Shown here piece by piece: positions 27,438 through 27,507 of a stretch of 28,908 bases of DNA. A program made the translations under genes and the position numbers. Each line of letters starts with the position of its first letter. Positions within the stretch are counted from its first letter, which is position 1. The stretch is from positions 1-28,908 of the IMG/VR virus record IMGVR_UViG_3300023172_000135; one strand, written 5' to 3'. The stretch comes from a virus. The notes under the pieces are model-generated. The model was not told the DNA's origin. It saw nothing but the letters and a program-made list of their open reading frames with translations, and searched no databases.

Positions 27438-27507
27438 GGATGAACGCTCCGTTCCGCGACTTACTTGCGTCCTATTCGCTATTCGCAAATGGCGAATGGG
27501 ATGAACG
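27438..27507 (-). ncRNA. Glutamine-riboswitch-like leader (Downstream-peptide / glnA type)
   Basis: The transcript folds in the family pattern. P1 pairs CGTTC (27507-27503) with GAACG (27454-27450). P2 pairs 27501-27492 with 27479-27470 (nine of ten bases). Next comes the conserved single strand CGCAAGTAAG (27469-27460), close to CGGAAGTAGG of the known aptamers. These RNAs bind glutamine in cyanobacteria, and the Downstream-peptide class is known from marine cyanobacteria and phages. An exact second copy of CGTTCATCC (27446-27438) could pair with the same GAACG and enclose the Shine-Dalgarno GGAG (27450-27447). Recognition is by eye, without a covariance search. Confidence 0.75.

Follow-up and report, generated by a model that had tools for sequence, protein, structure and literature searches.

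Riboswitch aptamers are usually regarded as untranslated. The closest described systems to the RNA examined here are the two glutamine-sensing classes, glutamine-I (glnA RNA, RF01739) and glutamine-II (Downstream-peptide, RF01704). Cyanobacterial glutamine riboswitches mainly control DUF4278 genes, and riboswitches of either class serve as ON switches, as glutamine-II does in picocyanobacteria (PMC6316151). Glutamine riboswitches have also been reported in cyanophages, including S-CREM1 (PMC9964418, PMC9602691), and in the methylophage Melnitz (PMC9004378), and the accessible parts of these three reports describe neither a split aptamer nor an embedded ORF.

The leader considered here lies on the minus strand of a 28,908-nucleotide window (the whole stretch of DNA that was analysed), upstream of an ORF of 64 residues. 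A first-pass annotation had interpreted it as a self-contained, glutamine-riboswitch-like aptamer in which CGTTCATCC occurs twice, once as the 5′ aptamer strand (A1) and once just before the ATG (A2), and had proposed that glutamine turns the 64-residue ORF on. All of the sequences and coordinates given there match the window. The two strands of the proposed P1 (27507-27503 with 27454-27450) are complementary, nine of 10 positions pair in P2 (27501-27492 with 27479-27470, leaving one C·A mismatch), and both CGCAAGTAAG and GGAG are present. A 181-base query taken from the leader matches 441 cyanophage records, the exact 22-base core is found in more than 120 viral contigs, and the duplicated CGTTCATCC is likewise conserved. 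Judged by these sequence comparisons, the leader is confirmed to be conserved far beyond chance and the original observation to be real. The local RNA alone, however, reaches only 17.1 bits with the Rfam glutamine-II model (threshold 33) and 16.0 bits with the glutamine-I model (threshold 35), and its folding stability does not exceed that of shuffled sequences (z = -0.76).

The features of the locus, in the direction of transcription, are as follows.

27543-27515, minus strand: predicted sigma-70-like promoter, read from the sequence (TTGCCT 27543-27538, a 17-base spacer, TACAAT 27520-27515)
27507-27499, minus strand: A1, CGTTCATCC, 5′ strand of P1 (27507-27503) and of P2
27501-27470, minus strand: P2 hairpin, or slot 1, with covariation that extends across ORFs
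27472-27450, minus strand: B, GGACGCAAGTAAGTCGCGGAACG, core of the 5′ half between the P2 hairpin and GGAG, with AGUA 27465-27462 (loop E), AGUCG 27461-27457 (5′ strand of P3) and GAACG 27454-27450 (5′ strand of P1′)
27450-27447, minus strand: GGAG, Shine-Dalgarno sequence of the embedded ORF, in the P1′ triloop, whose GAG tracks ORF presence
27446-27438, minus strand: A2, the second CGTTCATCC, with the 3′ strand of P1′ at 27446-27442 and double changes against B
27436-27242, minus strand: embedded ORF, 64 aa, phrog_13397 (PHROG E = 1.3e-42), C-terminus DAND-stop, homologues with pN/pS 0.20
27257-27235, minus strand: C, GGACGCAAACGACTGAAGGAACG, the 3′ aptamer half, with CGACU 27248-27244 (3′ strand of P3), GAA 27243-27241 (loop E) and GAACG 27239-27235 (3′ strand of P1)
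27245-27208, minus strand: expression-platform hairpin, CUGAAGGAA 27245-27237 with UUUUUUCAG 27216-27208, adjoining the ribosome site of the next gene
27197-27033, minus strand: DUF4278-like gene, 54 aa, the proposed regulated gene (Pfam PF14105 E = 3.3e-4, below the curated cut-off; phrog_545 E = 2.4e-31)

Homologues carry TTGACT..TATAAT at the position of the promoter. The -10 box of the window copy lies inside a palindrome directly 5′ of the aptamer (27524-27511, GGTCTACAATGACC), where many relatives (e.g. L030, L088) have AGGTCTATAATAGACCT.

On comparative evidence, the first-pass annotation can be shown to have seen half of a larger RNA, a single one with nested helices around a coding ORF. 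The 3′ half, C, is located at the end of the ORF, whose stop codon (TGA, 27244-27242) falls inside it. Among 240 loci, C comes after B in 236 and the remaining four end at a sequence edge; A1 is found in 230 of 236 elements, most of the others having lost it to contig ends. In a second sampling of 80 loci, fetched solely through protein similarity of the next gene, the same pattern recovers C in 79 (the eightieth has a diverged C) and a true B in 74; of the six without one, four stop short at a contig end and two carry an endonuclease-like gene there. The association of B with C is therefore not an effect of seeding the search with B. The two halves are separated by a small hairpin in the compact form and by an ORF of 52-92 codons in the other copies; among isolates, Bellamy has the compact form and SynMITS9220M01 has the same element with an ORF between B and C, and S-RSM4 and S-ShM2 are further isolates with the element. 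With C included, a nested glutamine-I fold closes around the ORF, with P1 formed by 27507-27503 and 27239-27235 and P3 by 27461-27457 and 27248-27244. P1′ and P2′ would make up a second junction within P3, with the ORF in its loop and the Shine-Dalgarno sequence of the ORF in its triloop.

Six of 12 compact copies score 38.4-43.6 bits against RF01739 (gathering score 35), with nested pairing across A1, B and C, such that P1 is A1/C, loop E is AGUA of B with GAA of C, and P3 is AGU of B with ACU of C. The likeness claimed by the first-pass annotation thus stands, and the Rfam search on which it could be judged succeeds with these relatives while failing with the local RNA. For the other six compact copies, and for one copy with an ORF in slot 1, Rfam favours an alignment of A2 with C at 27-34.6 bits, below threshold. 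The RF01704 gathering score of 33 is not reached by the window (17.1 bits), the best relative attaining 34.0 bits as a secondary match, and the Rfam glutamine-II alignments of the window and of S-ShM2 place non-standard pairs in the last helix of the model. The element appears to be a variant of the glutamine-I kind, a class taken from its compact relatives, as the score of the window copy itself covers the 5′ half alone.

With glutamine-I RNAs the element shares P1 (CGUUC/GAACG), P2, ACG, the AGUA/GAA loop E and P3, as well as a position upstream of small DUF4278 genes and a platform at the ribosome site. It differs in that P3 has an inserted second junction with a protein gene (P2 may hold another), that CGCAAGUA stands where glutamine-I has CGGAAGUA, and that the aptamer overlaps an ORF stop codon. 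Glutamine-II RNAs resemble it in CGUUCAUCC, GGACGCA, GGAACGG and small downstream proteins, but that class closes by a pseudoknot and is without the P3 and loop E that are present here. The glutamine-riboswitch match in S-CREM1 has a length of 99 bases, matching the compact form in size. Group I and II introns with endonuclease ORFs likewise loop a protein gene out of a structured RNA core and can carry endonuclease cargo, although the structured core of this element is an aptamer joined to an expression platform and the window matched no intron family.

Rfam is divided between the A1-B-C and A2-C alignments, and we therefore examined the topology by covariation. These tests ignore kinship among the sequences, and the argument is that a single helix is solved in several different ways. 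P3 is paired in 98.8% of cases, with whole replacements, GAGCAUA/UAUGCUC for example, among its 21 double-change cells. In the isolate P-RSM4, P3 is AUUCG/CGAAU, and the same change turns the protein end from DAND to DANE. P1′ becomes CAACG/CGTTG in five loci where A1 and C are unaltered, which backs the A2-GAACG hairpin that had been proposed from the window copy. The same five loci lose one pair each in A1·B and in a tandem A2·C pairing, whereas the outer P1 (A1·C) stays intact. Across the ORF, the 5′ strand of P2′ (UCCU, 27440-27437, formed by A2 together with 27437) covaries with its partner AGGA (27258-27255): position 1 is U-A, C-G or G-C in 193 of 193 elements, and position 4 is paired in 189 of 193 against 151.8 expected. 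The third pair of P2 is likewise maintained across slot 1 ORFs (67 of 68, against 54.5 expected), while P1 shows no covariation because it is invariant. Compensatory changes are seen in P3, P1′, P2 and P2′, including helices that join both sides of the ORFs.

An unguided RNAalifold consensus of 81 distinct ORF-excised elements contains P1 (A1·C), P2, P3 (B·C), P1′ (B·A2) and P2′, the last pairing the A2 side with the stretch just 5′ of C. The three-way junction of P1, P2 and P3 is thus present in the unguided fold, with compensatory changes in P2 and P3. Loop E is represented by AGUA (27465-27462) opposite GAA (27243-27241), and relatives with a TAA stop have AAA. When aligned with solved aptamers (PMC6698751), the glutamine-contacting residues (C1:G59, C58 and the O2′ of G22) fall at 27507, 27235, 27236 and 27468. 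These residues are conserved, 27507 and 27468 preceding the ORF and 27236 and 27235 following it. The base after the contact G is C, compared with G in the RF01739 consensus; glutamine-II has C there.

The ORFs between B and C (slot 2) are coding sequences, with pN/pS values of 0.20-0.33 by length class. Their stop codon lies inside C in 178 of 205 ORF-bearing elements (144 TGA, 34 TAA). The P1′ loop reads GAG, completing the GGAG Shine-Dalgarno sequence, in 196 of these 205 elements and in none of 31 hairpin-bearing ones, which bears out the earlier placement of GGAG in the loop of the A2-GAACG hairpin. The 64-residue protein is predicted to be small and helical (pLDDT 82); its sequence has no match in Pfam, and a PDB fold search with the model gave no match at E below 2. 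Many phages have a second ORF family in slot 1. Three embedded families share an N-terminal hydrophobic stretch and two cysteines and, by hhalign (E = 2e-4 to 4e-4, probability 35-45%), look distantly related.

Slot 1 (the P2 loop) holds an ORF or an HNH endonuclease gene in other phages. The HNH endonuclease-like gene (..WDASRA-stop), whose end is encoded by the B half, has its own compensated P3 (GAGCAUA/UAUGCUC) and occurs in L208, L209, L211, L213, L215-L218, L221-L223, L226-L230 and L232. At L125, L128, L133 and L067, the P1′ loop, between B and A2, is interrupted by a gene or remnant resembling the end of a homing endonuclease (..SIRRWKKSL-stop or GTAAGCAATTAGAATG..).

The gene that follows C is the better candidate for regulation. 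A YRG motif is present in the proteins of 194 of 196 genes 3′ of C. The platform hairpin has a predicted energy of -15.1 kcal/mol in the window (z = -4.23), folds likewise in 138 of 144 distinct homologues, and pairs the C strand CUGAAG with CUUCAG at the ribosome site of the DUF4278-like gene. Where C has CUAAAG, the partner is UUUAG in 31 of 31 cases, and where it has CUGAAG the partner is UUCAG (63) or the wobble-compatible UUUAG (33; p = 7e-12, ignoring kinship). The bases that form the platform are also needed for P3, loop E and P1, and so aptamer and platform are mutually exclusive. We also considered an intrinsic terminator 3′ of C (GGG..CCC then AUUUUUU, judged by eye). However, its U tract is the partner of C and homologues have CUUUAGGAG, and a translational platform therefore fits better. 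A second platform class, seen at several loci (e.g. L028, L044, L048; L357 697-725), has an extra hairpin, CGGATCC..GAGAAGG, between C and the ribosome site, and the distance to the start codon accordingly falls in one of two ranges, 31-40 or 56-67 bases.

We consider it probable that T4-like cyanophages carry, in this element, a riboswitch of the glutamine-I type with its aptamer wrapped around a protein gene, and we infer both the ligand, glutamine, and the polarity. A two-state mechanism is proposed because, among 84 distinct elements folded after excision of the ORF, A1·C forms in 81 when the platform is omitted and in none when it is included, A1·B then appearing in 67. In the ligand-free RNA, C would stay paired at the DUF4278-like gene's ribosome site, keeping that gene off, while A1 pairs with B and the GGAG of the ORF is exposed. 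Binding of glutamine would allow P1, P2, P3 and loop E to form and would free C, and the DUF4278-like gene could then be translated. More tentatively, P1′ would close over the GGAG of the embedded ORF in the bound state, and a ribosome halting at the ORF stop codon could also open the platform. On this model glutamine is likely to turn the DUF4278-like gene on and perhaps turns the 64-residue ORF off. The earlier claims that this ORF is the regulated gene and is switched on are accordingly not supported: the platform that covaries with the aptamer belongs to the gene at 27197-27033, and the predicted bound fold hides the ribosome site that the ligand-free fold exposes.

An extension of this scheme, which we find doubtful, is a double aptamer in which a pair of quasi-symmetric glutamine pockets would share P3 around a gene, and the ligand would activate the DUF4278-like gene and silence the embedded one. 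The case for a second pocket is that the pocket residues recur in the inner junction, as CG of A2, the G of ACG in C, and CG of B. If true, one RNA would toggle two phage proteins by host nitrogen state.

Phages may instead use the repeats as junctions for swapping small genes, with cross-ORF pairing a relic and the embedded ORFs unregulated. Slots that carry different ORF families and endonuclease genes, and isolates with and without an ORF at the same site, would be expected of such a cassette, but compensation preserves the helices that close the ORF loops, C has a built-in stop codon in most ORF-bearing elements, and the Shine-Dalgarno loop tracks ORF presence. We judge this reading unlikely, and it would explain the origin of the arrangement rather than rule out a switch. 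Tandem aptamers seem quite improbable to us. Here A1-B would be one domain and A2-C a second with the ORF in its P2 loop, the B·C contacts serving as a tertiary link. The compact forms that Rfam aligns as A2-C agree with this and tandem glnA RNAs are a precedent (PMC2864571), yet the P3 covariation between B and C, the double changes between B and A2, the division of the loop-E strands between B and C, and the nested unguided fold all speak against it, and even this arrangement would place an ORF inside an aptamer. The self-contained aptamer of the first-pass annotation, in which A1·B is P1 and is switched against A2·B, we regard as very improbable: almost every element has complementary A1 and B, A1·B recurs in the predicted ligand-free folds and A2·B has covariation, but at 16-17 bits the half-aptamer falls well short of the thresholds of 35 and 33, its loop-E GAA, P3 partner and P1 strand all lie beyond the ORF, five loci break A1·B with A1·C still paired, and the presence of C after B and the covariation of P3 are left unexplained. 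The A1·B pairing is best read as a predicted ligand-free alternative to the outer P1 of the gene-interrupted riboswitch.

In viruses of ocean cyanobacteria, one RNA thus seems both to carry a gene and to set the expression of the following one according to the nitrogen state of the host. A protein gene divides the sensor core and itself encodes part of it, as a P3 strand and part of loop E are the last codons and stop of that gene, which suggests a direct coupling of translation to ligand sensing. Our literature search, whose scope was open-access papers, found no natural riboswitch with a gene inside its aptamer. The locus also illustrates how gene-interrupted aptamers can escape covariance searches. 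Hundreds of cyanophage genomes have such leaders amid 'hypothetical' genes; the model offers them a role and renders testable the way in which marine phages read host nitrogen state.

The B core occurs in only three contigs among 84,980 species genomes, one labelled Nonlabens and two in one marine Euryarchaeota MAG. The former (L202, NZ_RMVE01000006.1, labelled Nonlabens xiamenensis, 188 kb) is probably a misplaced phage genome, because it is 98% identical over 6 kb to the cyanophage P-TIM40; with just these three contigs, one of them cyanophage-like, we rejected a bacterial home for the exact element. We also set aside an opposite-strand SymR match (26.2 bits, threshold 61), a chance result of the P2 palindrome, and matches to ceN30, sraA and sR2 far under threshold. 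Downstream of the DUF4278-like gene, a second small gene (26928-26755) has a weak DUF4278 match (E = 0.017) and is followed by a hairpin and T tract resembling an intrinsic terminator (26768-26741). Finally, more than 120 viral contigs contain ordinary short glutamine-I-like aptamers (CGGAAGTA; loci from L233 on), most of them upstream of other small genes, with 17 of 121 preceding YRG proteins by a crude first-ATG test.
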